Shown here one piece after another: positions 8,401 through 55,424 of a stretch of DNA of 64,000 nucleotides (within the stretch, counting starts at the first letter, position 1; every line of letters begins with the position of its first letter). Source of the stretch: Bacillota bacterium (GTDB lineage: Bacteria > Bacillota > Clostridia > Peptostreptococcales > Anaerovoracaceae); contig JAFYYP010000053.1 in the NCBI GenBank assembly GCA_017557505.1, positions 1 to 64,000 of the forward strand, in the 5' to 3' direction. Under the pieces are notes generated by a model. That model had not been told where the DNA came from. It did not search any database and worked only from the letters and a program-made list of their open reading frames with translations. Position numbers and translations under genes: made by a program.

Positions 8401-11400
8401 ACCGGGGTCACCGCCCGGGTATGGCTGCTGTTGCGCAGCGGAATGGTCTTGATCAGCAGATCGTCCGCGTCGAAGCAGTACGCATTGCCTCCGGACCAGG
8501 CGAATATAGCGCCGGCCGTGTCGATGGCGATGCCCTGCGTGTCCCGCGCGTACCCCGCCAGGGACCCTTCCAGCAGCGTACATTTCACCTTTTCCGAACC
8601 CGGATCGAACACGCCGCGGTACAGGCCGAGGCCCTTGCCCAGATCCGCTTTCAGCAGGAAATGGACCGCGCCGCCCAGATAGGCCGGACAGCTGATCTCG
8701 CCCGCGTACACGCATTTGAGCGCGCCGCCGGAGCGCCGCATACGGTAGATGCCGTTGTCCTTGAAAGCATAAATGGCTTCGGGCGTAACGAGGTTGAAGG
8801 TCCCGAGCGTCACGTCGAGCGTCGAGACGTACGTACCCGTGCGGATGTCGAACAGCGCGGTTTTGCTGCCGTCGATCAGATAGAGATACGTGCCGTCCGC
8901 GTCGAAGCCCCAGACCGCGTCGCGCAGCTCCGTCGGGCTGTTGAGGATGCTCTTCGTGACCGTAGTCGTCCAGACCACGTTGCCGTCCGCATCGCGCGCC
9001 GTGAGCGTGAACGGATAAGTATGGATGCTGTATTTCGGATTCGCGGCATACGTCTGTACCGTGGGTTCCAGCAGATAGGTATAGCGGCCGTCTGCGACGA
9101 TGTTGCCGCCGTCCCACATGCCTTTGAAATACGTGTGGAACAGCTGGCTTTCCCCGTCGCGGTAGTCTTTCGCGCCGTGGCCTCCTGTCGTGTTTTCCTT
9201 CAGTTCGCCGGTCTGATCGCCCGCCTTGGCCTGCCGGAAGTCCGCGCTCACATCGAGCGCGATGCCTTCGGACAGCATGGCGGCCTTCAGGCTAGGCGCT
9301 GCGGCTAGTACGTCCCGCTGCAGTTTGTCGGTCTCGGTCAGCACAAAGACCTCCGCGGTCTCGGTGCGCAGCAGATCCAGCCCGACCCGCGGCGCGACGT
9401 TGTCGACGTAGGACCTGTCGGTCGCCACGGCGGACAGACGGTCTGCCTCGGTCACGTACTCCTCGAGCGTCTCCTCCGTCCAGCGGTCTTTGACGGTCAG
9501 CCGCACCTCGAACGGTCCGACGCCCGTCTGGTGGAAGCGGATCTGCTTGCCGCTGCCGAAACTCAGATCGGCGTAACCGGGCATCGCCGGAATGCTCTGC
9601 CAACTGCCGCCTTCGCGCCTGTATTCCCACGTACGCTGCAGGGCGTCCCCGTCGGACGACGAAGCGCACAGCGCCGTGATGGAAGCCGTGTTGCTTCCTT
9701 CATTGCGATAATAGACCTCCTCCAGATCGATGGCCGCAAACGGCGGAAGATCCGGGTCGACGGGGAACGTTCCGTAGGCCGCGTCCGTGTTGCCGGCGGA
9801 ATCCTTCGCGTGGATCTCGTACGACAGATATTTGCCCTCGTGCCACTTCGTCAGGAAGTCCAGCTCCACGCACAGGAAACACTCGTCGGAACCGGCGTCC
9901 TTCAGGCTGCGGTACTTGATGTGCGCCGAATTAGCAGGCGCGTTTTCCGCCCCGCCGAACACCTTGGACACGGTGATGCTTTCGCCGCTTTCGGGCTCGC
10001 TCAGCTTGATCGTCAGCTCGTTTACCGGGGTTTTCGGGTTCTGCGCAACGGTAACGTACAGCACCTGCTTGCGGTTTTCCTTCTGCACGCCGCCGAGATC
10101 CTCGAGGATGGCCGGCGTCTTCAGGATCTTGATGCTCTTGGTATCCGTATCCTTCAGGCCGTTCGTGGCCTGCGCGGTCAGCCGCACCTGGTAGGTACCG
10201 GGCTTGCTGAACACGGCCACCGCGCCGGTCTTGCCGGACTTGCGGATAGTGCCGACGCCTTTCTGCACGATGGTGAAACTGCTTTTGCCAAGACCGAGTT
10301 CCGCAGCCCTCGCCGCGTTGATGTTCTTGCCGTCGACTGTGTACAGCGAGACGTCTTTCGCTGCCACGTCGTGACCCGCATAAGCCGTCTGCGGCAGGTC
10401 CAACTCCGCGCTGAGCGCGGAGATATCCGCCGGATCGACAGGTTCTGCCGGATCGGTTGGATCGACAGGGTCGCCCCCTCCGCCCGGGTTGCCGGGATCG
10501 TTCGGGTCGCCGCCGGCACCGGGACCGTCGCCGCCATTGCCTGGATCGTTTGGATCTGTGCCCGGGTCACCGCCGTTACCGGGGTCGTCACCCGGGTCGG
10601 GAATACGCAGGTCCGTAAACACCAGGCTGACCGGGAACTCGAAATGCAGCCCGCAAGCACCTGCCGCGGCGAACGTGCCGCTGCCGATACTGTAGCCGGC
10701 GGAATCGACGACGTTCATGCCCAGCGTGATCGGATGCCCGCTTTCGAGCGTCCCGCTCTTTCCCGTGATGAACGACGGGTGGATGGCGTTGCTGCCGGTG
10801 TCGGACGGGTCGACTTCGTTATAGTAGCCGAGACCCTGCACGGCGGACTGGCCGTTGCCGAACACCGAGTAGATGTTGCAGCCCCACATCTTGTCGACAA
10901 GGGGTACGGTGACCGCCATGCCGGGCACATAGTCGCGCAGCGACGCGCCGCTGTTGTTGAAGTGAAACACCGGCGTCGCGGTGAATTCTATTTTGCCATC
11001 TTTGAGGGTCACGTTCTGCGGGCCGCTCTCCGCGAACAGCATGGAGCAGTCGCGCCAGCGGTAATTCGCGAATTCGACCTGCCAGTCCGTGCCGCGCGTG
11101 CCTTCGGAGACCAGCGCCGCGATCTCCTGCGGCACGCTGATCGTAAAGACCGCCTGCTGGTTGGCCTGCAGATAGCTGTCCAGCGACGTGATGTCTCTAT
11201 CGTCGATGCGGATCTTGTCGTTGCCCGCGTTGCCGACTTTCCAGTAGCCGCCGGAATAGTGCCACATGTCGAGCGTCCAGACGCCCGAGACCTTGCCGAT
11301 CTGTTCAGAGGCTTTCGCTTCAGCTGCCGCGTCTAACGCGTATGCGGGAAAGCTGCCGAAGCTCAGCACCATCGCGATCAGGATGGCGGTCGCTCTTTTC

Positions 11401-11414
11401 AGGATCTTCTTCAT
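5409..11414 (-). CDS. very large secreted multidomain surface protein (about 2001 aa)
   Basis: No function recognised. An ATG at 11414 with AGGTGG five bases upstream fits better than the GTG at 11423. The N-terminus is a signal peptide (KK, hydrophobic core, AYA cleavage). A roughly 60-residue linker rich in Gly, Asp and Pro (about residues 270-330, DNA 10430-10610) separates an N-terminal domain from a long array of beta-rich segments. Near the C-terminus (about 1740-1850) a PKD/cadherin-like module with DKDKDPLTV and SDGQG motifs is visible. No sortase motif or SLH domain is present. The adjacent upstream gene encodes a three-SLH protein and is only 9 bp away, so the two probably act together at the cell wall. 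Confidence 0.75.
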   Translation of the reverse strand: MKKILKRATAILIAMVLSFGSFPAYALDAAAEAKASEQIGKVSGVWTLDMWHYSGGYWKVGNAGNDKIRIDDRDITSLDSYLQANQQAVFTISVPQEIAALVSEGTRGTDWQVEFANYRWRDCSMLFAESGPQNVTLKDGKIEFTATPVFHFNNSGASLRDYVPGMAVTVPLVDKMWGCNIYSVFGNGQSAVQGLGYYNEVDPSDTGSNAIHPSFITGKSGTLESGHPITLGMNVVDSAGYSIGSGTFAAAGACGLHFEFPVSLVFTDLRIPDPGDDPGNGGDPGTDPNDPGNGGDGPGAGGDPNDPGNPGGGGDPVDPTDPAEPVDPADISALSAELDLPQTAYAGHDVAAKDVSLYTVDGKNINAARAAELGLGKSSFTIVQKGVGTIRKSGKTGAVAVFSKPGTYQVRLTAQATNGLKDTDTKSIKILKTPAILEDLGGVQKENRKQVLYVTVAQNPKTPVNELTIKLSEPESGESITVSKVFGGAENAPANSAHIKYRSLKDAGSDECFLCVELDFLTKWHEGKYLSYEIHAKDSAGNTDAAYGTFPVDPDLPPFAAIDLEEVYYRNEGSNTASITALCASSSDGDALQRTWEYRREGGSWQSIPAMPGYADLSFGSGKQIRFHQTGVGPFEVRLTVKDRWTEETLEEYVTEADRLSAVATDRSYVDNVAPRVGLDLLRTETAEVFVLTETDKLQRDVLAAAPSLKAAMLSEGIALDVSADFRQAKAGDQTGELKENTTGGHGAKDYRDGESQLFHTYFKGMWDGGNIVADGRYTYLLEPTVQTYAANPKYSIHTYPFTLTARDADGNVVWTTTVTKSILNSPTELRDAVWGFDADGTYLYLIDGSKTALFDIRTGTYVSTLDVTLGTFNLVTPEAIYAFKDNGIYRMRRSGGALKCVYAGEISCPAYLGGAVHFLLKADLGKGLGLYRGVFDPGSEKVKCTLLEGSLAGYARDTQGIAIDTAGAIFAWSGGNAYCFDADDLLIKTIPLRNSSHTRAVTPVRTGNGRVNYIAQTGYERYPKSYEVWCQCSAVYTDDVFSDRRTKEDNYPNFGDPVVFALEDENGAIGIDLGCNYVYSTGERYLDTVLFTFNGDFRNPLGFPMEHGYQSLRYDVSTANLDGRADIKQFVHVAESRADEEERLKAKHLSGTKNYSYYMTLDGPQTQESVASALDNAAAAIKALKAQGENAAMLKGSGSLVRNVSLAPDTTYFYEYDTTAKTDIFSVEAQLTIPSGMTGNTSGYRVIATHVENFDDTAVDKFFTADSAAIGGGRYRIGYLRTKEDSWLHTQSGSNYPVRFTVPEGCKAVFTTDYAYDCDASDPLAKRLFLTREGETAVALDIPSAGLTRASGTYMHVSLLPPGSYTLSCSVQDRTKTSNHESSFWLDNLKVLLVEEGAAQETAGYQTLQPSSSVQGDGAMHHVSGSFTTPKQVLHYAAYPCQRVTGLNNAFAKTSEEMRGYTKTLTLDLTIPAGRQALYTVFTGTGKGGSYTSSNTGKTRYYSANWSFDDVLYGINTKESNGILALYALPENVRFVWKNLNDSHTLKATANTNYGAKIAFSDLLLYVSDGSAIPAAVAEGRFFESAGQLYAEDLIFSGGGRVRFTAPDGTAISNLRIYSVSGSSESEMLVCSFKDENDLAKWTNSGATTAIQPFKTEKEEPARVYAKGETINYQIFYSDWENDPSKKQHWVYTHEALTDWPYPQAGKDLSAPVTKFYIDGKYTLTHWQEDSTGTPSYDKESNKVSITFYIQSGPSNDAPWIKDIKTSPSPVKQGNTYTVQASVDDKDKDPLTVTIEVYKDQGSQPIGRKTVKDLKPDASGKYPAIVLSGLPKAEAGTYDIVVSVSDGQGADVESMRFKVKEERSLTGSVTHTAAWESNRLAWNEAKKGTAAVRPANMFWPGEVLVLNAPAGGEPTTVDAVLVQFPQYTARLTRGAVTDGKVNFTGQLWHSSMLTTIGTAKPVPATVRFTARYPDGETLTWDVAIIFDQSYGSYYQLHRNY

Positions 11415-11423
11415 GGCCGCCAC

Positions 11424-12617
11424 CTACTTCCACTGAAACACCGGCGCGTCCAGATCGAACGTGCCCGACAGCTGATAGGTGTCCGAGGCCAGCTTGTACT
11501 GCACCTGCGTTTTGCCCGTTGTCAGATCCTGTTCAGCGAACGCCAGACTGCTTTCCACCTTGCCGTTCTCCGCCGTGACCGTCACGAGAAGCCCGACAGA
11601 ACCGGCCGCTTTCAGGTCTTTCAGATCGAACGTGAATTCCGCGGAGCCCGCTTCTTTCAGGTCTTTGCGGTACGTGGGCATCTTCTCCATGCCCTTGCGA
11701 CAGACCCAGACGTAGCCGTCCAGCCCTGTGCCGTTCCTGTCGCACACCTGCACGTCGATCTTGCCGCCGCAGCCTTCGGGCAGGGCGGGCCAGTTCAGTT
11801 TGACGAGATACTTTCCGTCTTCTTTCACGAAGCGTGCCGAGGAAATGACTTCTTTCAGATAGCTGCGCACTGCAGGGTCCATGAACGTCAAAACCTGTTC
11901 GTCCCCCGTGCGCACAAGCGCGTGTTCTTCCTCCCGTTCCAGCAATTCTTCGCGGGTGGAAGGCTCCTTGGGCGTTGGTTTTGGCGGTTCCGCAGGCTCT
12001 TCCGGTGGCTCCTCCGGTTCCGTTTGACCCGGTCCGAGCACGCCGTCGAGCGCTACCATGGCGGCCGTGCTTTCCGCGCGGGTCAGGAAGCCGAGCGGAC
12101 GGAACGTGCCGTCGGGATAGCCGCTCAGCGTGCCGTAATAGGCGCACAGCGCGATCGCGTATTCGCGTTCGTCCGTCGCCTCCACGTCGCTGAACGTCTT
12201 GTCAGCCGATTTGACGTTCCTGCCGCTGCGGTCCGCATTGCGCAGCAGCCCTGCCATGATGAGCGCGACGTCCCTGCGCGGGATCGGCTCGTCGAGGAAG
12301 CGAGGCGAAACGTCCGCCTCGTCCAGGACTTCGGCGGCTATGGCTGCGTCGTAGAATTTGCGGGCCCAATGGGTGCCGGCGGCATCCTCCTTGCCCTTGC
12401 CCCGCATCGCCATGGCAAGGAATTCTCCGTAGGTCACCTGCCGGGACGGCCGGAAACTGCCGTCCGGATAGCCGGAGACGATGCCGAGATCCCTGGCCGT
12501 CTCCACGTAAGAAGCAAACCAGTCCGTCTGCCGCACGTCGGTAAACGGGCTTGCTGCGTAGACGGGCACTGAAAAGAGAAGGATCAGTGCCGCTGCAAGA
12601 GATATGAGTTTCTTCAT
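11424..12617 (-). CDS. secreted protein with three SLH domains
   Basis: Cell-wall-anchored exoprotein. The start at ATG 12617 (397 aa) is chosen because AAAGGA precedes it and a classic signal peptide follows (KKLISLAAALILLFSVPVYAA). Three SLH modules fill residues about 20-205; the key motifs are FTDV..DWFA, GYPDGSFRP and GYPDGTFRP. A Pro/Glu-rich spacer follows and then a C-terminal domain of about 150 residues of unknown fold. SLH domains bind pyruvylated secondary wall polymers. It is the first gene of a two-gene unit with the giant surface protein and may be its wall anchor (inference). Confidence 0.9.
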   Translation of the reverse strand: MKKLISLAAALILLFSVPVYAASPFTDVRQTDWFASYVETARDLGIVSGYPDGSFRPSRQVTYGEFLAMAMRGKGKEDAAGTHWARKFYDAAIAAEVLDEADVSPRFLDEPIPRRDVALIMAGLLRNADRSGRNVKSADKTFSDVEATDEREYAIALCAYYGTLSGYPDGTFRPLGFLTRAESTAAMVALDGVLGPGQTEPEEPPEEPAEPPKPTPKEPSTREELLEREEEHALVRTGDEQVLTFMDPAVRSYLKEVISSARFVKEDGKYLVKLNWPALPEGCGGKIDVQVCDRNGTGLDGYVWVCRKGMEKMPTYRKDLKEAGSAEFTFDLKDLKAAGSVGLLVTVTAENGKVESSLAFAEQDLTTGKTQVQYKLASDTYQLSGTFDLDAPVFQWK

Positions 12618-12696
12618 CCTTTCTTTGCCCCCGCGCAAAGAAGATGGCAATATTATACAGGAAATATTTACCATTTACAAGAGCGCTGAACAATAA

Positions 12697-12727
12697 AAAG
12701 ACCCGCGCTTTTTCAGCGCAGGCCTTT
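12697..12727 (-). terminator. terminator of the ECF sigma/anti-sigma operon
   Basis: Minus-strand hairpin AAAGGCCTGCGCT ... AGCGCGGGTCTTT (13-bp stem with two G-T pairs, 5-base loop) followed by TTTTTATTG, just after the anti-sigma stop. It separates this operon from the SLH gene. Confidence 0.85.
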
Positions 12728-12741
12728 CAGAAAGGAATGCG

Positions 12742-13557
12742 TTATTGCGGTCTTTCGTCGTACAGATACAGCATCCAGCCGTGATGCTCGTCAGCCGGGA
12801 ATCTCCTCAGCTGTTCGAACGTCGCGTGCAGCGTCGGGTAGACCTGTTTCTTGCCGTTCGTGTCCTTGACCTTCTCCAGCGCGGTCGTGATCCCGTACTT
12901 CTTGGACAGCATGGCGAGCAGTTCCGCAACTTCTTTGTCGTCGCCCTTCAGCGGAGTCTCTGATCCTTCCTTGAAGATCTCGACGTACACGCGGTACGTG
13001 ACCGCATTGTCGTATACGGCCATCGCGTCCTGCAGCGCCACGGAATAGCCCGTCTGGCCTGCCGCGGGCACCGCATAGCAGTACGCCGAGTAATCGCCCG
13101 GATAACTTTCGATCATCTCGGAGACAGCTGCGAGCTCTTCGTCCGACTCCATAGCCATGGGCGCTTCAGCCGGCGCTGCGGCAGGTTCGTTCTCGCGCGG
13201 TTCGCCGGCATCCGGTTCCGGAACTTCCGCCGGCTCCGCTTCCGCAGGCTCTGCCTCCGCGACGACCATACTGTCTTCGAGCTCCCCTTCTTCCATGGCT
13301 CCTGTGTAGTAGATCTCGCTGTCCGACGCATTCTTCGCCTGGTCTGCCATCGGGGCGTGCGCCATGCCGCTCTGCGAGACCCCCCATCCCGCAAAGAAGG
13401 CGATCGCAAGACAGGCCGCCGCAGCCACCCAGCGCCAGCGCGCCGGGAACGTCAGGAGCTTACCTTTCTCCTGATTTGCCGCCGGCTGACCCAGCGCCTC
13501 TTCGACCAGGTCGTCGTCGATATATCCTACTCCTTTGAGCAGATCAAAGCCTTTCAT
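12742..13557 (-). CDS. membrane anti-sigma factor-like protein
   Basis: Probably holds the co-encoded ECF sigma factor at the membrane. It is 271 aa with a short cytosolic N-terminus (YIDDDLVEEAL, frequent in Clostridia proteins paired with ECF sigma factors), one membrane helix (about 44-64), an acidic Glu/Pro/Ala-rich stretch and an extracytoplasmic domain that would sense the signal. The ATG overlaps the sigma stop by 4 bp, giving translational coupling. The signal is unknown. Confidence 0.8.
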   Translation of the reverse strand: MKGFDLLKGVGYIDDDLVEEALGQPAANQEKGKLLTFPARWRWVAAAACLAIAFFAGWGVSQSGMAHAPMADQAKNASDSEIYYTGAMEEGELEDSMVVAEAEPAEAEPAEVPEPDAGEPRENEPAAAPAEAPMAMESDEELAAVSEMIESYPGDYSAYCYAVPAAGQTGYSVALQDAMAVYDNAVTYRVYVEIFKEGSETPLKGDDKEVAELLAMLSKKYGITTALEKVKDTNGKKQVYPTLHATFEQLRRFPADEHHGWMLYLYDERPQ

Positions 13558-14108
13558 ATCCGAACCCCCTCTTTCTCCAGATAGCCCCTGAGCTTATTGC
13601 GCGTGCGGAGCAGCGAACTCTTCACCTTGCTCTCGCTCACGCCGAGGGCTTCCGCCACCTCCGCGACGGATTCCGCCATCAGATAACGCCGTACGAAGAT
13701 CCTGCGGTTGTCTTCGCTCTCGCCGCGGAGAAAACTGCTCAACAGAGCGCCGATCTCCTGCGGTTCGAAGTCCAGCTCCGCCGCCCGGTCCGGGATGCAG
13801 GCCTGCATTTCGTCGGTCAGCTCCACGATCTGCGCGCTGCGCTTGGCTGCGTTCCTGTGTTCCAGCATGCCGAGCGCCGCATTGCGGCAGATCTTCAGGA
13901 TGTACGCGAGGAAATGCACGGGCCGGTTGGGCGGGATGGAATTCCAGGTCTTCAGGTACGTGTCGCTTTCACACTCCTGAGCGTCCATGTCGTCGGCCAG
14001 GATGCGCAGCGCGACGGCTCTGAGTTTATGGCCATACGAAACCCGGGTCTGCTCGATCGCAGCCTCGTCGCGCGCGAAATACAGTTCTATGATCCTGGCA
14101 TCTTCCAA
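13554..14108 (-). CDS. ECF-type RNA polymerase sigma factor
   Basis: A 184-aa sigma-70 family member with region 2 (about residues 15-85, with AECESDTYLKTWNSIPP-like helix and the -10 recognition segment) and region 4 (about 120-175, ending in the helix-turn-helix SVAEVAEALGVSESKVKSSL). There is no region 3, as is normal for ECF factors. It is first in the operon with the anti-sigma gene. The regulon is not visible, but the neighbouring SLH and giant surface genes are candidates by position. Confidence 0.92.
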   Translation of the reverse strand: MEDARIIELYFARDEAAIEQTRVSYGHKLRAVALRILADDMDAQECESDTYLKTWNSIPPNRPVHFLAYILKICRNAALGMLEHRNAAKRSAQIVELTDEMQACIPDRAAELDFEPQEIGALLSSFLRGESEDNRRIFVRRYLMAESVAEVAEALGVSESKVKSSLLRTRNKLRGYLEKEGVRI

Positions 14109-14196: not shown

Positions 14197-17100
14197 TTAA
14201 TGCGGAGCGGGACCCGCCTGCGGGCCGTCCTTCTTCTTTTCCTCTTCGTGGATGGCGTTCTGCGCTTCCTGCACGGCAGGCTTCACCTGACGGTACGTCG
14301 CGTCCAGCCACTCCTTGGCTTCCTTCGGGGCGTCGCCGAAGCCCTGCACGTAGTTCGTGAAGTGCTGCGGGTCTTTCTGCGTGCGCTCCATACCTTCGAT
14401 CAGGGCCTTGTAGGCCGCCGGATCGTTGACCGCGGCCCAGATCGTCTTCTTCATGGCCGGGTCATCCTTTAAGCGGAGCGCCTCCGCCTTCATATCCTCG
14501 TAGTCCACCTGCTTGCCCTGATACTTGGGCGACTGCGACAGGTTGTACAGCGCGACGGTCTTGCAGGTCTGCATGGCGAAGCGGTTGATGTCGTTCTTCT
14601 CCATCTGCGCGTTATTCCGCAGCTGCAGGGAATCGTTCAACTTCTGCAGGTTTTCCTTGAACTGCGCCATGGGCGTGCCGGGCTGCGGCTGAACGATCTG
14701 TACGGGCTGCGCGTTGGCAGCCTTCATGCCTTCTCTCATCTTGTCCGCGTCGGGCAGCGTGAGCGTGGTGTTCAGCTGTTCCTGCGCGAACTTGCGGTCG
14801 GACAGGCACTTCGTCACGTACTTCTGATAGGTCTTGTCTTCCGCCAGGTGGGGCCTGCAGGCCTCTATGGCTTCCGGGGTCACCGGCTTGCCGGCTTTCT
14901 GCAGCAGGGCCGAGATGTACAGCGTGCCGAGGCTGTTTTCGACCTCAGACGGCTCTACGACGGGCTGCTTTAAGGTCTGGTCCAGGCTCTCGCGCGTCTT
15001 GTTGAACGGCGAATCCAGGTCGCCCTCGATCTTCAGCGGCGTGTTGTCCCAGCCGAACTGCGGCCAGCCGACCGCTTCGCGTGCCTCGGGCTCCGGTTCA
15101 GGCTGCGCCTGATCTTCGGGCTTTGCCTGTTCTTCCAGATGAGCGCCTTCTCCTTCGCCCTTGATGTCGAACTTCTGTCCGTTGATGTCGATCTCCAGAT
15201 CGTCCTCTTCCGGCGCCGGCTGCTCAGGCTGCGGTTCGGGCTGTGCCTGCTGCTGGTTCTGCTGCACGTTCGCGCCGCCCAGATTGAGCTCGCGCACGTG
15301 ATCCACGAACGCCTTGTGCTTCGCGTCGAACTCGTTGTCCGGGGAATTGAAGACGTCCAGAACGTAATGCTTGAGGAGTTCGGGGTTCCTGGTGAACGTC
15401 TCCTTCAGCATCTGGTATTCTTCCGACTGCTCATAGTCTTTGATCGCGTCCGTCTTCTCCTGCGTCGACGCGTTGCGGTTGTTCGTGACCGCGCCGTTGC
15501 GCTTCCACGGAATGATCTCCGCGATCGTGAACCAGGCGCCCGGCATGAAACTGTTCGCCATAGCCGGCGTCTTGATGGACATATCGGCAAAGTTTATCGC
15601 GCTGGTCATCTGATCCCAGGTCATGACGCCCTGATAGCCGAAGAATTCGCCGCGCAGATGCTGGCCGTTCCTGGCGTTATCCTCCAGCATGTCGGTATAT
15701 TCCTTATCCTCCAGCACCTTCTTGTACTGCGCCTGGATCTCGGCGTTCGTAAAGTAGACGCGGTCGGGATTCGTGTGCAGCAGCTTGTTGACTGCCGTCG
15801 CGCGCACGCAGTGGTCGAGCGCGACGTCTTTCTGGCCGCGCATCCACGAGGTCATCCCCTTGCCGGTCGTGTTCTTGTAGAGGCCGTCTCTGGGACCCTG
15901 CATCGTATTCTTGCGCAGATAGAACAGGATGTTGCTGGCCGGATCGCTGCCCGGTTTAGCTTCCTTGCCCTGCGCGATGGCGTTCTGATCCAGCAGCTTC
16001 GCGAGGTCCGCGCCGGACGCGCCGCCCTCCGCAGCGTTCAGGAAGGATTCGAGCGCCTGCGGGTCGTTCGCCATCTTCTTCACGGCGTCCTTGAAGCCGG
16101 GCACCGTCTGGATGAACTGTTCCTGTTCAGCCTGCTGCTGCGTGTTCGGCAATTCGTCCGCCGGGATGACCTTCAGCAGCGCCTTGTTCAGCACGCCTGC
16201 GATCTGACCCTGGAGCCTCTGTTCTCTCTGCTCCGGCGTCTCCCCTGCGGGGGCGTTGCGGACCTGGGCTGCCGCGTTACGCACGGCCAGATTCGGGTCG
16301 ACCGGCGGGATGGCAAGCCCTGCCTCACGGATCTTGGTGACCAGCGGATCCGTAAACACTTCCTTCGAATGATATTCTTCCGCTGCCAGTACGCGCAGGT
16401 CGCCCGCGTCCTTCAGCGCGTTCACGTACCCTGCGACGACCTGCGGGTCCTTCAGCCGTTCGTTCAGGTCGCCCAACATGCTGTCCACGCCTTCCGTTGC
16501 CTGCTCGCGGAGTCCTGCGACAACACCGCTGTTCGGATTGTCGTAGACCGTTACCTCGCGCTTCATCAGCTGCGGATCCTGCGGCGCGGTCACGATGACG
16601 CGGCGGTCCAGGAACATCTCGCGGATGTTCTTGGCCAGCTCCTGCCTCTTCACCTCGTCGTTCGCGATCGCAGCGGGATCTTCCTGCGCCGCGGCCTGGA
16701 TGCCGGCCAGCGCCTGGTTATAGTTGTTGCCTATGGTATGGGTATCCTTCATGGGTACGGAAGGATACTTCTCCATGAATTCGTCGGTCAGCTGCTCGTA
16801 GGCCGCCTTGAATTCGGAGGGCGGCAGCTTGAACAGGTTCTGGATCCTGTCGAATTCCTTCACGTCCGCCTGGATCGCGTTCTCGATCGCGCGGTAGCGC
16901 TCGGAGAACTGCACCTGGTTGACGGAAAGGCTTAAATCTCTTGCGCTCAGATAGGCGTTGGACATCTCCCTGCCGGACAGGCGCGCGTCGATGGCGCCGG
17001 CCAGCTGGTTCGCGACCATGCCGTATGCGAATCCGGCAGCCTCTCCTCTGCCTTCCGCTTCCATCTTCTTCGCGTTCTGCAGCTGATTGCGGTACTCCGC

Positions 17101-20100
17101 CAGCTTTTCCGTATCGGACCAGCGCTGGATGCCGCCGCTGTTGAACACGGCCTGGCGCAGCTGGAGGGGGCTTTCCAGACGGGCGTTCAGACCCGCCATG
17201 AACTTCTGATCGTTCTTGAGCGCCTCGACGCCCTGATTGATCTCCGCCTCGGAAAGGAACGTCTTTTCCGGATGCTCGGCGTAGAGGCGGTTCATGGCCG
17301 TAAAGCGCAGATAGTCGTCTCTGCGGGCCAGTTTCTGCGCCTCGGACGCCCACTTTTCCTCCGCGTTGCCCGCCAGCAGGTCCGCGTACTGATCCGCCAT
17401 GACCTGGGCGTGCACTTCGTGCAGGATGTCGGGATTTCTCAGGTCGTCCGGCGCGTTCTGCAGCCTGTCCTGGGCCGCCAGGCCGTCGATCATCTGCGCC
17501 AGGTCGGCGCCGGAAAGACCGTTGTCCACGCCGTCCAGCAGGTTGTTCAGTTCCTCCGGGCTCTTCTTCAGGATGTTCATCGCGTTCTGGAAGTCGTCCG
17601 TTCTGGCCAGCTTGCCCGCGCTCGGACCGAGCTTTCCCCGTGGGGGGATCTGCTCATAGGGAATGCCGTCCTTTTCGTATTGGGTGACCAGGAACAGCTC
17701 CGCCAGAGCCTGGTCCATGTCCTCTGTGCGGCCCTGCTGCTGCATCGCGCGCAGCTGGCCGGTGAGGACCTTCTTATGGTTCGCGTAGCCGGGCTGCACG
17801 CCGGGCAGACGGACGGAGCGTTCCTCCATCACATCGAAATAGTTCTCGTCAGCCGTTGGCTCGATGTCCGCGAGGCTGCCGCCTGCCAGCAGATAGTCGT
17901 TGATCTGCTGATAGCTGACCGAACTGCGGATCTTCGCCTCTTCCGCCGCCAGTTCCGCCGGCGTGATCAGAGCGTCCGGGAATGCCTGGTTCTGCAGGCT
18001 GGAGAGCGCCATGAGCTTTGCCACTCTGTCTGCGTCGGACAGGTTCAGATCCAGCCAGACGTTCCGTTTCTGATTCGCGATGGTGTGCTCCATCGCCGTG
18101 GACGGATCGGCGAACAGGGCGTCCATCTTTTCCTTTACGCCCGGCCGCTCCAGATACTCGTTCGCAGCGTTGTTGACCAGGGTCAGCCGCAGCATTTCCT
18201 CCGCGCGGCCGGGATGCCTGACGTCGTGTTCGCGCATCGCGTGCATCCTGGCGTAGGAGCGGATCAGCCGCTGCTTATCCTGCGCAGACCACTGCCTGTT
18301 CTGACCCTGCGCGTTCGTCAGGGTCTGCTTTTCCCTTTCCGCCCACTGCGCCGCGGTCAGGTGGGAGAACGTTCCGACCAGGGGATCGATGAATTCGCCG
18401 CCCTGGGCCCGGTTGTACCGCGCCTTCAGCGCGTTCAGATCCGGAGCGTTCTTCACGCTCCTCATGGCCTGGGATGCGGCGGGCGCACTGGCCTTGATCT
18501 CGGCGATCGCGTCCGCATAGACCGGATTGTTGCGGATCTGATCCTCGATCTGATGCAGGCGCTGCTCGGAAAGACGCGCATGGGCGCCTTCCGGCGATTC
18601 GAGGGTCATCTGGCGCAGCGCCATCGCGCGTATCGTGTGTTCAGCCAGCTGCTGACGGCCTTCCGTGTTTCTTGCCAGCGTTTCGTTGGAATCCTGCGGA
18701 TTGAAGTAGGGCTGCAGCGCCTCGTATGCGGCGCCGATGCTTCCCGGCCGGAATTCGGGATACGGATAGGTCCTGCGCAGGGGCACGACGTGCTGCGCGT
18801 GGGCCTGCGTGAACTCGTCGCCGGACTTGCTGAACGTGTTCTCCATCAGTTGGCGTCCCAGTGCCTCGCCGTCCTGCTCGAGCCCGCGGACCAGCGCCAG
18901 ATGGGCGTCGCCCAGCTTGACAGTATTCGTTTCCGCTCGCATGTCCTGATCGGTAATGACGGCATTGTCGCTGCCTGCGCGTCTCTGCAGATTGCGGACC
19001 GCGGTCATGCAGGCGAGTTCATGCGCCAGCAGGGGCTTGATCGCGTCGGCGCTGTCCGTGTCGTCGTGCATCTGCTGGAGATAGCTCTCCGCGAGCTGCC
19101 TGTGCTTTTCGTAGCGCAGCGATGCGAGGCCTGAGGAAGCCTTCTGCAGGTCTTGCGTATTCTGTATCTTGCCTCGGACGGATCCCATGAAGACGTTGTC
19201 GGCGCGAAGCGCTTGCTCCGCCTCGTTGATCTCTTCATCCGTCACGTACGGGTTGCGTTCTTCGTCATCTCTATGCGCATCGCGGACGTTGTTGAGCGCC
19301 GCGAAGCGGATGAATCCGTTCTCCGCCTCCTGCTGCTCCTGCTCGGAATAGGTATGGTTCAGCAGTTCGCTGATCCGCGTCTCTTCCGCATCGACCATGT
19401 TTTCGATGCCGCCGCGCGCGATCTTCCTCAGATTCTGCTGCAGGGCTTCGTATTCGATATCGACCGAGAGCGCTTCGGACAGTTCCTGCGCCTTTGCGGG
19501 ATCGGTCAGTGCCGTATCGACGGCTCTCTGGATCTCGCTCTCGTCCGGCGCATTCTGGATCGCCTCGTTCAAAGCGTCGGGAGACAGGTGTTCCGTACCG
19601 CCGTGCTCGCTCTCATAGGCCAGCTTCTGAAGCGCCATGACCTTGATCGCAATGGGTCTCAGCCGGCTCGTCTGCGTCTGCGTCAGGGGGCCGCCTTCCA
19701 GTCCCTGGTTCCGCAGTTCTTCCTTCGCGCTGTGCAGCTGCTCCGCGATGGTCGGATAGCTGATAGTCTGGAAATTGCGCAGCATGGGGTTTCTGTAAGC
19801 GTCGGGATTCGCGCGGTAGTTGCGCGACATCTGCGGCCGGTATCCCCTCTGGATGGCCGTGGTCAGCTCATTCATGTGCTCCCAGCTGCGGTTCGCCGCG
19901 GCCAAGGCGCCGTTCACGAACGGGGCTTCCGAGGCGTTCTGCACGATGGCGTTGATCTCGTCTGCGTCCAGTCTTGCGTTGGGGCCTGCGGGGTCGGTGA
20001 CCATGATATTCTGCAGCGCTGTCGCGCGCAGGACGTGCTCGCGGTACGTCGCCTGCTGGCTCGCCGTCAGAGGCTGCCCGCTGATCCTGCGCATTTTTGT

Positions 20101-21060
20101 CAGATCGCGCAGGACCCGGACGGAGTCGTTGAATTCCTGCTCCACGGTGCGGCCGGGCACCTCTGTGTATTCCGGACGGGCGAAGCTCACGTAATCGTCG
20201 TGGTTGACGTAGCGGTCGTCGTTGAGTCCCTTCTCCTCGTTATACAGCGTCTCGATCTCGCGGGCCGTGTGCAGCGGCTGATCGTTTGCGGGCCGCGGCG
20301 CGGGATGCTGCGTGTATTCCGCGTACAGCTTCAGGACGTTTTTCTGGCGGGTATTGCCGAATCCTCTGGTGCGGTTGCTCCTCTTGCCCTGCGAATACGC
20401 GTCGAGCGTGCGGAGCATTCTGTCGTCGTCCGCCTTGCTCAAGGGCATGTTGCCTTCCAGCATGGCGATCTGGCGGCGGACTTCCGATTTGACGTTCTCG
20501 AATTCTCTGCTGTTGCTTCCTCTGCGGATGCCGGGCACGTAGTAGCCGTTCTTGGTCGCGTCCAGTTCCTTTAAGACCTGGCGCAGCACGACGGCGCGCC
20601 TTGCCCTGTCCTGCTGCGGCAGCACGTCCTGGTCTATGGTCTGCGGCTGGAATCTGTCTCCGAGCTGCTGGTCGATCTGATCTCTGAACGCGTGCTGCGC
20701 GTTGCGGCGCTCCATCCGGTTCAGCGGGAGTTCCACCGGCTGCGTCTGCATCGCTTCCGCGTATGCGGGGTCCTTCATCAGACGGTCCGACATCGCCTCG
20801 ATGCTCTTCGAGCTGAACTGACGGGGATACCCCTGCTCGATGTGCGCCTGCGCGTCCATGGCGTTCTGAACGGTCAGATACAGGCAGGAGTTCAGCTCCG
20901 CCTTCCTGTTGCGGTATTCGGCACTGTTGCGGTCGAGTTCTTCGTCCTCGTCCAGCCGCTCCAGTTCGTCCATGATGGCGCCGGCATAGCGGTATGCGGC
21001 AGCCTGGTAGTTGCGGGTAAGCTCTCTCAGCTGTTCCTGACTGTAATTCGGTCTAGGCAT
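14197..21060 (-). CDS. giant cytosolic helical-repeat protein, 2287 aa, function unknown
   Basis: No family recognised. It has no signal peptide and no membrane helix, is rich in Gln, Ala, Glu and Asn, and is almost wholly alpha-helical by residue pattern. A degenerate module recurs: a helix with A..AL..L, an acidic capping turn such as LSEAEIN, VTDEEIN, LDADEIN, FTNAEIQ, then a helix containing D..[YF]. I place copies near residues 93, 362, 495, 608, 705, 830, 953, 1033, 1270, 1772, 2063 and 2187. A second motif, SGADLA(Q/K)(M/L)(I/L)D, occurs near 1187 and 1683. A Pro/Gln/Glu-rich linker lies near 1930-2010, and the tail ends KKKDGPQAGPAPH. Its promoter carries the same tandem element as the divergent kinase-like gene. 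A scaffold or a translocated effector is possible; neither is shown. Confidence 0.85.
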   Translation of the reverse strand: MPRPNYSQEQLRELTRNYQAAAYRYAGAIMDELERLDEDEELDRNSAEYRNRKAELNSCLYLTVQNAMDAQAHIEQGYPRQFSSKSIEAMSDRLMKDPAYAEAMQTQPVELPLNRMERRNAQHAFRDQIDQQLGDRFQPQTIDQDVLPQQDRARRAVVLRQVLKELDATKNGYYVPGIRRGSNSREFENVKSEVRRQIAMLEGNMPLSKADDDRMLRTLDAYSQGKRSNRTRGFGNTRQKNVLKLYAEYTQHPAPRPANDQPLHTAREIETLYNEEKGLNDDRYVNHDDYVSFARPEYTEVPGRTVEQEFNDSVRVLRDLTKMRRISGQPLTASQQATYREHVLRATALQNIMVTDPAGPNARLDADEINAIVQNASEAPFVNGALAAANRSWEHMNELTTAIQRGYRPQMSRNYRANPDAYRNPMLRNFQTISYPTIAEQLHSAKEELRNQGLEGGPLTQTQTSRLRPIAIKVMALQKLAYESEHGGTEHLSPDALNEAIQNAPDESEIQRAVDTALTDPAKAQELSEALSVDIEYEALQQNLRKIARGGIENMVDAEETRISELLNHTYSEQEQQEAENGFIRFAALNNVRDAHRDDEERNPYVTDEEINEAEQALRADNVFMGSVRGKIQNTQDLQKASSGLASLRYEKHRQLAESYLQQMHDDTDSADAIKPLLAHELACMTAVRNLQRRAGSDNAVITDQDMRAETNTVKLGDAHLALVRGLEQDGEALGRQLMENTFSKSGDEFTQAHAQHVVPLRRTYPYPEFRPGSIGAAYEALQPYFNPQDSNETLARNTEGRQQLAEHTIRAMALRQMTLESPEGAHARLSEQRLHQIEDQIRNNPVYADAIAEIKASAPAASQAMRSVKNAPDLNALKARYNRAQGGEFIDPLVGTFSHLTAAQWAEREKQTLTNAQGQNRQWSAQDKQRLIRSYARMHAMREHDVRHPGRAEEMLRLTLVNNAANEYLERPGVKEKMDALFADPSTAMEHTIANQKRNVWLDLNLSDADRVAKLMALSSLQNQAFPDALITPAELAAEEAKIRSSVSYQQINDYLLAGGSLADIEPTADENYFDVMEERSVRLPGVQPGYANHKKVLTGQLRAMQQQGRTEDMDQALAELFLVTQYEKDGIPYEQIPPRGKLGPSAGKLARTDDFQNAMNILKKSPEELNNLLDGVDNGLSGADLAQMIDGLAAQDRLQNAPDDLRNPDILHEVHAQVMADQYADLLAGNAEEKWASEAQKLARRDDYLRFTAMNRLYAEHPEKTFLSEAEINQGVEALKNDQKFMAGLNARLESPLQLRQAVFNSGGIQRWSDTEKLAEYRNQLQNAKKMEAEGRGEAAGFAYGMVANQLAGAIDARLSGREMSNAYLSARDLSLSVNQVQFSERYRAIENAIQADVKEFDRIQNLFKLPPSEFKAAYEQLTDEFMEKYPSVPMKDTHTIGNNYNQALAGIQAAAQEDPAAIANDEVKRQELAKNIREMFLDRRVIVTAPQDPQLMKREVTVYDNPNSGVVAGLREQATEGVDSMLGDLNERLKDPQVVAGYVNALKDAGDLRVLAAEEYHSKEVFTDPLVTKIREAGLAIPPVDPNLAVRNAAAQVRNAPAGETPEQREQRLQGQIAGVLNKALLKVIPADELPNTQQQAEQEQFIQTVPGFKDAVKKMANDPQALESFLNAAEGGASGADLAKLLDQNAIAQGKEAKPGSDPASNILFYLRKNTMQGPRDGLYKNTTGKGMTSWMRGQKDVALDHCVRATAVNKLLHTNPDRVYFTNAEIQAQYKKVLEDKEYTDMLEDNARNGQHLRGEFFGYQGVMTWDQMTSAINFADMSIKTPAMANSFMPGAWFTIAEIIPWKRNGAVTNNRNASTQEKTDAIKDYEQSEEYQMLKETFTRNPELLKHYVLDVFNSPDNEFDAKHKAFVDHVRELNLGGANVQQNQQQAQPEPQPEQPAPEEDDLEIDINGQKFDIKGEGEGAHLEEQAKPEDQAQPEPEPEAREAVGWPQFGWDNTPLKIEGDLDSPFNKTRESLDQTLKQPVVEPSEVENSLGTLYISALLQKAGKPVTPEAIEACRPHLAEDKTYQKYVTKCLSDRKFAQEQLNTTLTLPDADKMREGMKAANAQPVQIVQPQPGTPMAQFKENLQKLNDSLQLRNNAQMEKNDINRFAMQTCKTVALYNLSQSPKYQGKQVDYEDMKAEALRLKDDPAMKKTIWAAVNDPAAYKALIEGMERTQKDPQHFTNYVQGFGDAPKEAKEWLDATYRQVKPAVQEAQNAIHEEEKKKDGPQAGPAPH

Positions 21061-21094
21061 AGTCTGCTCCTTTTTCCTTCGTTAAGATATGCTT

Positions 21095-21130
21095 ACTATA
21101 CAGGGCGTTGTCCAACAAATATCCAACAAA
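21095..21130 (-). promoter_or_regulatory. tandem TTTGTTGGA element and -10 of the giant gene
   Basis: On the minus strand TTTGTTGGATATTTGTTGGA (two 9-bp direct repeats, period 11 bp) at 21130-21111, then 10 bp, then TATAGT at 21100-21095. The position overlaps where a -35 box would be. The same element occurs at 22205-22224 before the kinase-like gene with an 11-bp gap to its -10, so it looks like an activator site or a special promoter class. Confidence 0.7.
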
Positions 21131-21131
21131 C

Positions 21132-22124
21132 TTAAATGTTTTCTTCGTTTTTCTGTCCGGCCGCGGCGTTCACTTCGGGACCTGCCACGCCGGGCTTCCA
21201 GTTCAGGACGTATTTCTTCGCGTATTTCGCTTCGACCTTCGCGTTGAATTCGGCTACGTCGTCCTTCTTGATGCGGTCGAACCAACCCTTCCTGCGCAGG
21301 TACAGCAGGACGAGGACGTAGACCGCGTCGATCGCGACGGTCACGAGCAGGCCTTCGACGCTGATCTCGGAGCTCAGCGGGCTCAGTCCGAACCCCGCCA
21401 GGTAGAACGAGACCATGTTGTTGACGATATGGATCGCTGACGAAGCTTCGATTCCTCTTGAGATCCATGCCATGAGTCCCATGGCGCAGCCCGTCGCGAG
21501 GATCGTGAGCCTGCCCACCATGTTGTACGGGTGCATGCTCATGAAGATGGCGGCCTGCAGGATGACTGCAATAACGGGGATGCGGAACCACCCGCCGAAC
21601 GTCTGCATCAGCAGACCGCGGAAGATGTATTCCTCGGCGACGCACTGCAGGGGTCCCAGGATGGTAAGCAGAATAAACCCTGCGGCGGTAAATTGGTTAT
21701 TGAACGGATACGGATCGATCAGTTCCAGGACCAAAATTGGCACGCCGCAGACGATGAATGCGATGAGCATCAGTTTGGCGAACAGGCCCCAGTCCCAGCC
21801 GCCGCGGGCCGAAGAATACGAGGAGAACGGCCTGTCGCGCATGATGAGCGCAGCAAGGGCCAATATCGGGATCGCGATGGCGAGCGACCCCAGGTTCAGC
21901 AGCGCGCCTTGCGCGGTGGAGACCTCCATCGTGTCGTAGCCGCCTGCGATGTTCTGAACAAAGTTGAAACCGCCGGTCGCGATGGCGCCTGCTGCGACCA
22001 GGGCTATTGTGGCGCCAAAGTAGATCACGCCGAAGATGAGCGCGACCAGGATGGGCTTGAACCAGCGGTAGGAGAGAAAGCGACGCGGGTACGTCGGGTA
22101 TTCGTGTTCGGGTACGGGTTTCAT
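21132..22124 (-). CDS. CPBP family intramembrane metalloprotease
   Basis: A 330-aa polytopic membrane protein (about eight hydrophobic segments) with the CAAX protease/bacteriocin-processing (CPBP) signatures EEYIFRGLL (about residues 165-173) and a downstream HIVNNMVSF in a later helix. These supply the glutamates, Arg and His/Asn of the active site in the family. It presumably cleaves a substrate within or near the membrane. The C-terminal tail after the last helix is cytosolic and charged. It sits between the giant repeat gene and the kinase-like gene, and its stop is one base from the tandem operator of the giant gene. Confidence 0.9.
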   Translation of the reverse strand: MKPVPEHEYPTYPRRFLSYRWFKPILVALIFGVIYFGATIALVAAGAIATGGFNFVQNIAGGYDTMEVSTAQGALLNLGSLAIAIPILALAALIMRDRPFSSYSSARGGWDWGLFAKLMLIAFIVCGVPILVLELIDPYPFNNQFTAAGFILLTILGPLQCVAEEYIFRGLLMQTFGGWFRIPVIAVILQAAIFMSMHPYNMVGRLTILATGCAMGLMAWISRGIEASSAIHIVNNMVSFYLAGFGLSPLSSEISVEGLLVTVAIDAVYVLVLLYLRRKGWFDRIKKDDVAEFNAKVEAKYAKKYVLNWKPGVAGPEVNAAAGQKNEENI

Positions 22125-22163
22125 AGATAGATCCTTTCTCGGGCCATTTCTTTCGTACCTTAT

Positions 22164-22192
22164 ATTTTATCGTTTTTGCGAAAAAAAGTGAA
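22164..22192 (-). promoter_or_regulatory. promoter of the CPBP gene
   Basis: Minus strand TTCACT (22192-22187), a 17-bp spacer, TAAAAT (22169-22164), 40 bp upstream of the CPBP ATG; AGAAAGGATC serves as ribosome site. Confidence 0.55.
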
Positions 22193-22204
22193 CTGCCCGT
22201 CTTC

Positions 22205-22241
22205 TTTGTTGGACATTTGTTGGATTTGGCTGTGGTAAAAT
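22205..22241 (+). promoter_or_regulatory. tandem TTTGTTGGA element and extended -10 of the kinase-like gene
   Basis: TTTGTTGGACATTTGTTGGA at 22205-22224 (repeat period 11 bp), 11 bp, then TGG-TAAAAT (extended -10, hexamer 22236-22241), 47 bp before the ATG. It is 19/20 identical to the element in front of the giant gene and equally placed. AAGGAG lies just before the start codon. Confidence 0.7.
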
Positions 22242-22288
22242 GGTAGCGTAAAAAAGGAATAACTGCATTTACCATAAGGAGAACGACC

Positions 22289-24574
22289 ATGGCAGACCCG
22301 AACGAATTGAAAGAACTGCAGGATCTGTACGAAGAACTGCAAAAAACGGCGCAGAAAACGCCGGAATACGAAGCGTTCCTGACCGCGCTCAAGGCCCTGA
22401 ACGATAAGATGTCCGTCCTGTACACAAAGGACGCTTACGGACGCATCCCCCTCGTCAGACAGGAGGAAAAAGACGAGCTGCTCGCCCTGCACCGGACGCT
22501 GGGTGAAAAGGCGGAAGGGTTCCTGGCAGACACCGGCGGCATGGCCAAACAGACCGTCGGCACCGTCAAGAAGCTGGCGGGGCTCAACAACGCGTTCCAT
22601 TCCGCGACAAAGAACTACGATCCGGCGAAGAAAAAAGCGCTGCACACGATCCACGAAGAGGCGCGTACGCCCGTGATCGACACGCGCAACCAGCAGCTGA
22701 AGGCCCAGCTGGGCGGCGCGCAGAACAGGCGCCAGCCGCTCACGTTCCTCGACCCTGCCGGAAAGGAGATCTCCGGCGTCTTCATCCCGGAAAAGTACGA
22801 AAACGGCGCGAAGAACATCTTAGATGCCTTCACAAAGGGCGACGCATTCCAGAAGGCAAGGACCGCCAACGGCAAGCGGACCATGATGGAGATCGTGAAC
22901 CACTTCAAGGAACTGAGCGACGATAACGGAAAAGACCCGTTCGAAACGGCAAAATACATGGTCAGGATGGCGGAGCGCGGCACGGATCCCCCGAAGTTCA
23001 CCGCGAAGTCCATCGCCAAATACATCAACAATACGAATCTGCACTATGCGCTGCGGGGCAGCACGATCCAGACCGAGATCGGCCAGAATGCGCTCTCCTC
23101 GCTGGCCAACACGCTCAATGCGAACTACCAGAGCATGATCATGAACGCGGATGCCAAGATCCCGGCGGGGGCCCGCATCGACACCCGCAACGCTGCCATG
23201 AGCTCCGTCGCGGAACTGCTGGACGTTCCGGATCTCGTCGCGCGGGCCAAGCCCATGCAGCTCATCGACGAGAAGGGCAAGATCGTGAACGGCACGTTCA
23301 TGATGGCTGCCGAGGGCATCGATACCAACAACATCCCCAAGGAAGCATCGAACTACGGTCTGAGTGCAGCCAACGGCACGAACGGCAATGCGTTCAAGCA
23401 GATCGCGGACCTGCAGGTGCTCGATTACATCTGCGGCAACATCGACCGCCACGCCGCCAATTTCTTCATGAAGTTCGACAAGAAAGGCAAGCTGATCGGC
23501 GTGCAGGGCATCGACAACGACTGTTCCGGCGGATTGGTCGTACCCAAGCACGGAAAAGGCCACAATCGCATGGTGGGCACGAAGGAGATGCAGGTCATCA
23601 GCCAGTCCATGTACACGAAGCTGAAGAACATGACCCCGGAACAGCTGAAGTTCGCCCTGCGCGGTTTCGGCGTTTCCGAAGAGGAGATGGATGCCCACGT
23701 GGCGCGCGTGAACCAGATCATAGATGCGGCGGATAAGAATATCGATTACTACAGAGAGCATCCCACGACGAAACCGGTGGCGGGCAGGCTGATGATCGTA
23801 CCGGACGATCAGTTCAGAAAACTGAAGCTCGCGGATCTGGCCGCGTACAAGATGCTCAATTATCAAGGCCAGCAGGTACCTGTTGCCACGAACCTGTTCG
23901 CCCACGTCAAGGATAACCTGCAAGAAATGCACGCGATGTACGAAGAGCAGGAAGCAGAGCGCCAGAAGGAGCACAAGGAATTCGAGACCATGAAGAGCGA
24001 AGTGGCCATCGGCGAGGACAACCGCGCGAATCCCGGCGCGATCAGGCGCCAGCAGCAGAAAGCGGACAAGCTGTATAACGAGATGGACAAGCGCACGAAT
24101 TTCTGGAAGTTCTTCTGGAAGTCTTCGAAGAAATACGAGGACATGGAAACAGCCATGAAGAACTACAAGAACTACCAGAAGGAGCTGCTGACCCGTCTGG
24201 AGCTGGCGCAGGATCCGAACTATACGGGCAAGTCGAAGAACGCGAACCGCAATTTCGACCGCGAAGCAGTCGTTTCCAAGGAAGACCTCGAAAAGCTGCA
24301 GGAGCTCGGCCAGAAGGTCTACGACACGGCCAAGATCTACACGGACGGCAAGGCCGCCAAGAACGTCGACGACATGGGTTCTTACGAGCGCAAGCGCTTC
24401 GAAATCGGCAACATGTCCAAGGCGTTCGGCAAGCAGGCGAAGAAACCTCTTACCGTCGAAGAGCTCAAGACCATCGCCGCGAACGAAAAGCTGGCACAGG
24501 AGAACGAAGAGCGCACGGCCGGCAACAAGAAGGAAGCCGAAGACCGCAAGAAGGGTCCGGCGCCGCAGGCGTAG
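22289..24574 (+). CDS. kinase-like protein with DRH...IDND catalytic signature, 761 aa
   Basis: Proposed ATP-dependent kinase of the PI3K/PI4K-HipA-FAM20 type. The signature CGNIDRHAANFF (Asp386, Arg387, His388, Asn391) followed 18 residues later by GIDND (Asp409, Asp411) matches the catalytic-loop plus metal-Asp arrangement of those folds. Two beta-hairpin-like segments of the form LxDxxGKxxxGxF lie near 150-165 and 328-343 and could form the nucleotide lid. There is no signal peptide or membrane helix. Flanking regions (1-140 and 530-760) are charged, Lys/Glu-rich and helical or coiled-coil; the tail is DRKKGPAPQA, like that of the giant gene. The substrate (lipid, protein or small molecule) is unknown. 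It is the first plus-strand gene and is divergent from the CPBP gene. Confidence 0.7.
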   Translation: MADPNELKELQDLYEELQKTAQKTPEYEAFLTALKALNDKMSVLYTKDAYGRIPLVRQEEKDELLALHRTLGEKAEGFLADTGGMAKQTVGTVKKLAGLNNAFHSATKNYDPAKKKALHTIHEEARTPVIDTRNQQLKAQLGGAQNRRQPLTFLDPAGKEISGVFIPEKYENGAKNILDAFTKGDAFQKARTANGKRTMMEIVNHFKELSDDNGKDPFETAKYMVRMAERGTDPPKFTAKSIAKYINNTNLHYALRGSTIQTEIGQNALSSLANTLNANYQSMIMNADAKIPAGARIDTRNAAMSSVAELLDVPDLVARAKPMQLIDEKGKIVNGTFMMAAEGIDTNNIPKEASNYGLSAANGTNGNAFKQIADLQVLDYICGNIDRHAANFFMKFDKKGKLIGVQGIDNDCSGGLVVPKHGKGHNRMVGTKEMQVISQSMYTKLKNMTPEQLKFALRGFGVSEEEMDAHVARVNQIIDAADKNIDYYREHPTTKPVAGRLMIVPDDQFRKLKLADLAAYKMLNYQGQQVPVATNLFAHVKDNLQEMHAMYEEQEAERQKEHKEFETMKSEVAIGEDNRANPGAIRRQQQKADKLYNEMDKRTNFWKFFWKSSKKYEDMETAMKNYKNYQKELLTRLELAQDPNYTGKSKNANRNFDREAVVSKEDLEKLQELGQKVYDTAKIYTDGKAAKNVDDMGSYERKRFEIGNMSKAFGKQAKKPLTVEELKTIAANEKLAQENEERTAGNKKEAEDRKKGPAPQA

Positions 24575-55422: not shown

Positions 55423-55424
55423 AA

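Follow-up and report, generated by a model that had tools for sequence, protein, structure and literature searches.

We propose that two genes in a 64,000-nucleotide stretch of a draft Bacillota genome (Clostridia, Anaerovoracaceae; GCA_017557505.1, contig JAFYYP010000053.1, positions 1 to 64,000; hereafter the window), one encoding a giant helical-repeat protein and the other a kinase-like protein, are likely effectors that the type IV secretion system (T4SS) of their own genome would deliver into other cells, with eukaryotic microbes of the rumen as the probable targets; we put the probability of this reading at about 0.7. It is proposed because the same promoter repeat precedes both genes and the T4SS operon of their genome, and eukaryotic targets are suggested by the PI4-kinase-like fold of the second protein together with the rumen setting of its relatives. 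Promoter, operon, linkage, co-occurrence, partial co-loss and predicted fold agree, and T4SS effectors under a two-component switch in rumen Bacillota is the best reading of them. From the computed promoter, linkage, co-occurrence and fold we infer secretion, target and activity.

A promoter repeat common to the gene pair and a type IV secretion operon

What ties the giant and the kinase gene to a secretion machine? An exact direct repeat, TTGTTGGA-N3-TTGTTGGA, with a period of 11 bp, lies upstream of both, at the position where a −35 element would be, and a −10-like hexamer follows it at 10 bp in one case and 11 bp in the other (Table 1). A first-pass annotation of the window had claimed a common promoter element of the same geometry for these two genes, and the repeat bears it out. 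At three or fewer mismatches there are 2 copies in the window, compared with a shuffle mean of 0.34, and 4 of 100 shuffles also reach 2. At two or fewer mismatches the whole genome holds 7 copies, compared with 1 for a reversed control pattern, and five genomes of the genus together hold 33. Among the 29 of these 33 copies that were examined, 23 have TANNNT 10 or 11 bp downstream. By position, 3 of the 33 precede pilin genes, 18 precede open candidate effector genes (one of them a frame in genome G005), 1 precedes a surface protein gene and 11 stand before fragments or short decayed frames (3 of these in G002, which carries a T4SS).

The 7 copies in the window's own genome mark the window pair, a kinase paralogue (contig C12), proteins of 661, 543 and 378 residues (C11, C9 and C21), none of which has a family match above cut-off in the domain scan, and a T4SS pilin (C2). 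This 91-residue pilin is the first gene of a type IV secretion operon, in which it is followed by proteins of about 860 and 328 residues with signal-like N-termini (judged by eye), VirB6, VirB4 (1346 residues), a 1705-residue PLAT-domain protein and VirD4. The operon spans the end of contig C2 and the start of C21, which by eye appear to overlap. Its identity is supported by domain scores of 74.2 bits for VirB4 (PF19044, cut-off 25.8), 167.6 and 303.6 bits for VirD4 (PF02534, cut-off 20.1; NF045973, cut-off 250), and, for the pilin and the VirB6-like protein, 36.4 bits (PF18895, cut-off 26.6) and 139 bits (NF045848, cut-off 90). Directly upstream lie genes for a 604-residue protein, a SpoIIE-type phosphatase with sensor domains, a histidine kinase and an OmpR-type response regulator in which both Response_reg and Trans_reg_C (28.2 bits, cut-off 26.2) are found; in the homologue of this regulator in isolate NC2004, Response_reg is the only domain detected. 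Like the pho box of PhoB/OmpR-type regulators, described in an excerpt of PMC4415409 as two 11-bp direct-repeat units, the repeat studied here has an 11-bp period, replaces the −35 element and sits 10–11 bp before a −10 element. It differs from the pho box in its unit, which is TTGTTGGACAT and not CTGTCAT, and in its targets, which are secretion and candidate effector genes.

We propose that the membrane histidine kinase and the OmpR-type regulator encoded beside the operon sense contact or a host cue, and that the activated regulator would bind the repeat and activate the secretion operon at the same time as the dispersed effector genes. VirD4 would then recognize a short, often Gly-Pro-containing (GP) C-terminal tail and pass the proteins to a channel of VirB4, VirB6 and pilin. 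To judge from its architecture, the giant protein could serve as a soluble scaffold or a platform for binding inside the same target.

Recurrence of the machine and the candidate effectors in other genomes

Eight genomes of the window's genus, all drafts of 75–94% completeness, were compared. VirB4 and VirD4 are found in the window's genome (G000) and in G002, G004 and G007, and at this completeness they were not found in G001, G003, G005 and G006. The same repeat lies upstream of the pilin gene in G002 and G004. In G004 the giant and kinase genes are direct neighbours that diverge from a gap of about 210 bp, in which no CPBP gene lies, and the kinase gene runs off the contig; a second contig of that genome has a kinase gene about 3.2 kb downstream of VirD4. 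In G001 synteny with the window locus extends over seven genes, CPBP gene included (72% identity), but no kinase match is left there, and of the giant gene only the last 71 codons persist, preceded by an exact promoter repeat. The first-pass annotation would have given up its proposal if the two genes were never found together in other genomes, and this is not the case: they adjoin in G004, and both are missing from the syntenic locus of G001, which lacks a VirB4/VirD4 match. G005 likewise contains collapsed genes behind intact repeats. We note that such internal loss recurs behind intact promoter repeats (L027 5077-5293, L101 7254, L102 10677, L098 6820, L019 4039), leaving little more of a candidate effector or surface protein than its start and/or its C-terminal tail.

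Beyond the genus, the kinase is present in 6 and the giant in 4 of 61 relatives. Protein search found 10 giant homologues, the window's own included (9 besides), and 154 kinase-family proteins, 120 of them listed. Among the best 80 of 160 confirmed stretches, at least 74 kinase loci come from named genomes. By title, 24 of the 74 derive from rumen, omasum or abomasum, 20 bear RUG names, which we take to stand for rumen uncultured genomes, 1 derives from cattle colon and 29 give no site; the titles include Lachnospiraceae, Oscillospiraceae, Erysipelotrichaceae and Acholeplasmatales. Fifty genomes stand for these 74 loci, the other 24 loci having been omitted because their genome was already listed or belongs to the window's genus. 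Counting a VirB4 score of at least 450 bits as the same subtype, a line drawn after the scores were seen, 43 of the 50 kinase-bearing genomes carry this VirB4. Among 390 other genomes across the class, 9 carry it in a single stretch, and another 4 reach the line when split stretches are counted, a background that may be slightly low because no more than two first-look candidates were scored in each genome. The co-occurrence is pronounced (Fisher p ~1e-40, with habitat a confounder). None of the 390 background genomes has a kinase above 300 bits, and two reach 88–113 bits.

Physical linkage is seen at fewer loci. VirD4, pilin or VirB6 genes lie in the fetched flanks of the kinase gene at 7 of the 74 loci, in 6 genomes (2 of the window's genus). 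For example, at locus L145 the genes after VirD4 encode an RsbW-like ATPase, a SpoIIE phosphatase, a 936-residue protein, the kinase and three proteins with no family above cut-off. At L148 a kinase has a giant relative (28% identity) about 3 kb away. In two places (L145 4694-6873, L042 2365-4518) RsbW-like ATPases and SpoIIE-type phosphatases are encoded next to VirD4 or upstream of a pilin gene, and this partner-switching module may add control of the T4SS machine. A histidine-kinase or response-regulator homologue is present in 10 of 16 regions around VirB4, and in 5 of the 16 (L218, L219, L224, L225 and L228) the repeat or a variant lies upstream of the pilin. The same operon occurs in the cultured rumen Lachnospiraceae isolates AC2029, YSB2008 and LC2019, and also in NC2004, whose VirB4 frame holds a stop. 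Two further observations concern genes just upstream of a pilin. At L224 (5847-6458), right behind an exact promoter repeat, an Xre-type helix-turn-helix is joined to a receiver domain and is another type of regulator in its lineage, and at L220 (3473-5254) a secreted-type CotH kinase (PF08757, E 9e-36) is encoded.

The repeat also recurs before kinase genes, those of other families included. In its original form (two or fewer mismatches) it precedes 7 of 69, of which 3 are in the window's genus (L120, L131, L141) and 4 are in two metagenome-assembled genomes outside it (L123 and L129; L127 and L137). When the pattern is widened to a G/C variant that has TTGTTGC units at an unchanged period, it is found in 19 of 65 kinase upstream regions (3 of the 19 genes lie in the window's genus), compared with 0.13 in each shuffle and 0.4 for random positions; the shuffles preserve base composition only, and for the variant the count is partly circular because the variant was picked after the result for the original repeat had been seen.

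Features of the two proteins

The first-pass annotation had described a 2287-residue helical-repeat protein, a CPBP protease and a 761-residue kinase-like protein. The open reading frames confirm both sizes and give 330 residues for the protease, which the domain scan identifies as such. The kinase-like protein is predicted to adopt a kinase fold with a DRHxxN loop and a metal-binding Asp, and the nearest solved folds are type II PI4-kinases and Fam20. At the level of sequence it stays just below the cut-off for PI3_PI4_kinase (PF00454; E 9e-6, 26.2 bits, cut-off 27.1), a family listed for it in the precomputed Pfam annotation, and below that for Fam20 (PF06702; 16.8 bits, cut-off 26.8). The likeness of working to these enzymes is therefore not membership of either family. 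The window kinase further differs from type II PI4-kinases and Fam20 (CtkA, CotH and HipA/HipT belong to the same comparison) in its extra N-terminal bundle, its C-terminal helical part and its tail. Compared with toxin-type membrane-localisation four-helix bundles and their lipid-binding tip, the predicted bundle is suggestive, and only suggestive, of a membrane-docking part.

The giant protein has no family match above cut-off in a Pfam-type domain scan. A profile built from its own repeats recovers about 12 degenerate copies of some 58 residues each (Table 1). A 781-residue piece of it (residues 1180-1960) is almost all helix in the predicted structure, with a mean predicted local distance difference test score of 84.1, and structure comparison matched it to no solved fold at E <= 0.001. 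Both proteins look soluble because their highest 19-residue mean hydropathy is low (0.91 for the giant and 0.88 for the kinase, vs 2.79 for the CPBP protein).

T4SS substrates commonly carry C-terminal signals. The two proteins end in KKDGPQAGPAPH (giant) and DRKKGPAPQA (kinase), tails similar to each other, as had been noticed at first pass. Of 109 kinase homologues of at least 680 residues, 41 have GP inside their last 12 residues, well above chance as estimated from 500 shuffles of the last 60 residues (mean 3.1, largest 12), and at ten sampled places elsewhere in these homologues it occurs in at most 6% of proteins. A GP tail is also present in the repeat-promoted proteins of 661 and 680 residues.

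Table 1. Positions of the genes, promoter elements and protein features in the window
Feature	Position	Strand	Basis or remark
Giant helical-repeat protein, 2287 residues, candidate T4SS effector	14197..21060	-	open reading frame, relatives, repeats, structure of residues 1180-1960
Giant C-terminal tail, DGPQAGPAPH at end, candidate translocation signal	14200..14235	-	similar tails in relatives of the giant
Degenerate repeats of the giant (residues)			54-106, 338-393, 467-522, 578-636, 678-715, 803-853, 1010-1052, 1245-1298, 1633-1668, 1746-1800, 2056-2088, 2160-2215
−10-like hexamer TATAGT of the giant gene	21095..21100	-	10 bp past the repeat
Direct-repeat promoter element of the giant gene, TTGTTGGATATTTGTTGGA	21111..21129	-	
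CPBP intramembrane protease, 330 residues, neighbour	21132..22124	-	PF02517; judged outside the system
Direct-repeat promoter element of the kinase gene, TTGTTGGACATTTGTTGGA	22206..22224	+	
−10-like hexamer TAAAAT of the kinase gene	22236..22241	+	11 bp past the repeat
PI4-kinase/Fam20-like protein, 761 residues, candidate T4SS effector	22289..24574	+	
N-terminal four-helix bundle, possible membrane-docking part	22304..22624	+	kinase residues 6-112
Catalytic loop, NIDRHAAN to DND	23438..23521	+	kinase residues 384-411
Kinase C-terminal tail KKGPAPQA, candidate translocation signal	24548..24571	+	

Alternative explanations, related systems and the surrounding locus

Several observations weigh against secreted effectors as the explanation. 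Habitat confounds the co-occurrence of VirB4 and kinase, the background having been drawn class-wide, and 7 of the 50 kinase-bearing genomes lack the VirB4 subtype. Within the genus, co-loss of kinase and T4SS is incomplete because G005, with no VirB4/VirD4 match, keeps an open 718-residue kinase-like frame that lacks a GP tail, along with a kinase truncated at a contig end; conversely, G007 has the T4SS and neither a kinase match nor a close repeat. Even the widened repeat is missing from 46 of 65 kinase upstream regions, GP is missing from the last 12 residues of 68 of 109 kinases, and the repeat-promoted proteins of 378, 543, 603/604, 615 and 900 residues have no GP tail. As for the machine, VirB4 scores 538.8 bits against NF045975, under the equivalog cut-off of 590, the four core T4SS proteins match families of conjugative elements, and no operon protein has a Pfam match to VirB1- or VirB8-like subunits, which mycoplasma integrative conjugative elements (ICEs) likewise lack according to an excerpt of PMC12857230.

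The last group of points bears on the idea that the T4SS is an ordinary conjugation machine and that both the kinase and the giant belong to a mobile element as accessory proteins or cargo and are controlled with it. Pilin, VirB6, VirB4 and VirD4 do match families named for ICEs, and a frame that by eye resembles a MobV-type relaxase (L040 5-850, contig C9) lies about 8 kb from the repeat-promoted 543-residue gene. However, the operon and neighbouring open reading frames that were scanned gave no match to a relaxase or integrase family (not every frame of this draft genome was scanned), the repeat-promoted genes are spread over six contigs of the draft, and the kinase family is conserved together with the machine across families, and we regard this explanation as quite improbable. 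The proteins might instead be T4SS substrates aimed at competing bacteria, which we consider unlikely, if a little less so: the nearest solved folds are eukaryotic lipid kinases and Fam20, and no window neighbour of the kinase or giant looks like an immunity partner, although no systematic search for immunity genes was made. The first-pass annotation had also suggested that the trio of giant, CPBP protease and kinase forms one co-regulated pathway, for example intracellular signalling on a protein scaffold. The genes adjoin, and the giant and the kinase look soluble and have a promoter in common. The CPBP protease is not tied to them, the promoter is also that of the secretion operon, and the kinase family tracks the VirB4 subtype, all of which makes a scaffold pathway very improbable indeed. 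The other option named at first pass, an effector directed at a host or a competitor, is the one favoured by sequence, as the same promoter precedes the T4SS operon and further candidate effector genes.

Injection of effectors into other cells by a T4SS appears almost unreported in Gram-positive bacteria. An excerpt of PMC12857230 presents dedicated Gram-positive T4SS effector translocators as a long-standing question and the T4SS of the Streptococcus suis 89K island, for which there is evidence of effector secretion, as apparently the first of them. In contrast to our candidates, the secreted protein reported there is a subtilisin-like protease, and the excerpt describes no dispersed regulon with a shared repeat. 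In the Legionella Icm/Dot regulons (PmrAB, CpxRA), as described in part of PMC6989116, scattered effector genes are likewise under winged-helix two-component response regulators, and CpxRA controls secretion genes too. Among Legionella proteins, the lipid kinase MavQ matches the fold of the window kinase weakly. Icm/Dot differs in being a Gram-negative type IVB machine, whereas the T4SS here is minimal and of Gram-positive type, with another DNA repeat, and the giant and tail families of the window organism are unrelated. The machine itself resembles that of Mycoplasma-type ICEs (Mbov_0395/0396/0397 families) with a CD1115-type VirD4, in that pilin, VirB6 and VirD4 reach the cut-offs and VirB4 comes close; it differs in its lower-scoring VirB4, in the large secreted proteins of the operon and in the lack of a relaxase or integrase match among the frames scanned. 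Part of PMC6079354 refers to secretion systems in proteobacteria able to survive inside ciliates, and among titles and abstract starts of the open-licence literature we found no description of an effector T4SS in rumen or gut Bacillota.

The regulon offers a broader candidate than S. suis 89K, comprising a conserved machine, a readable repeat, a recurring tail and cultured isolates. The repeat points to candidate effectors, and a DNA pattern of this kind gives a route to unknown effector families. More speculatively, at somewhat less than even odds, rumen Bacillota could have evolved a dedicated, two-component-controlled T4SS, independent of that of Legionella, which fires a broad effector arsenal into ciliates or fungi and would be the first Gram-positive multi-effector T4SS to act across kingdoms. 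Equally tentative is the make-up of that arsenal, which might comprise PI4-kinase-like enzymes, giant repeat proteins and several unnamed families. If rumen protozoa or fungi are the targets, conflict or symbiosis between bacteria and protists in the rumen would prove to have a molecular layer.

Finally, the setting of the pair in the window can be described. The trio lies outside the AT-rich island, as the first-pass annotation had stated: G+C content is 0.56-0.63 across 14-25 kb, and the island begins near 45 kb. The pair is flanked by the CPBP protease (PF02517, 50.4 bits, cut-off 22.4), a membrane protein and a sigma/anti-sigma pair. Membership of the CPBP protease in the system, also claimed at first pass, did not hold; it is a bystander because it is kept in G001 without kinase and giant and does not lie between the adjacent pair of G004. 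After the giant gene, a 2004-residue secreted-type protein, a 416-residue SLH-like protein and the sigma/anti-sigma-like pair are encoded at 5409-14108 (minus strand), syntenic in G001 (L027). Within the AT-rich island, a 1000-residue protein (50925-53927, minus strand), whose N-terminal SIR2-like region matches ThsA/Dsr1 models (best E 1e-26), is a candidate anti-phage defence gene product. Two adjoining genes at 54718-56780 (minus strand) match AbiL abortive-infection models (AbiLi E 8e-86, AbiLii E 1.8e-15).
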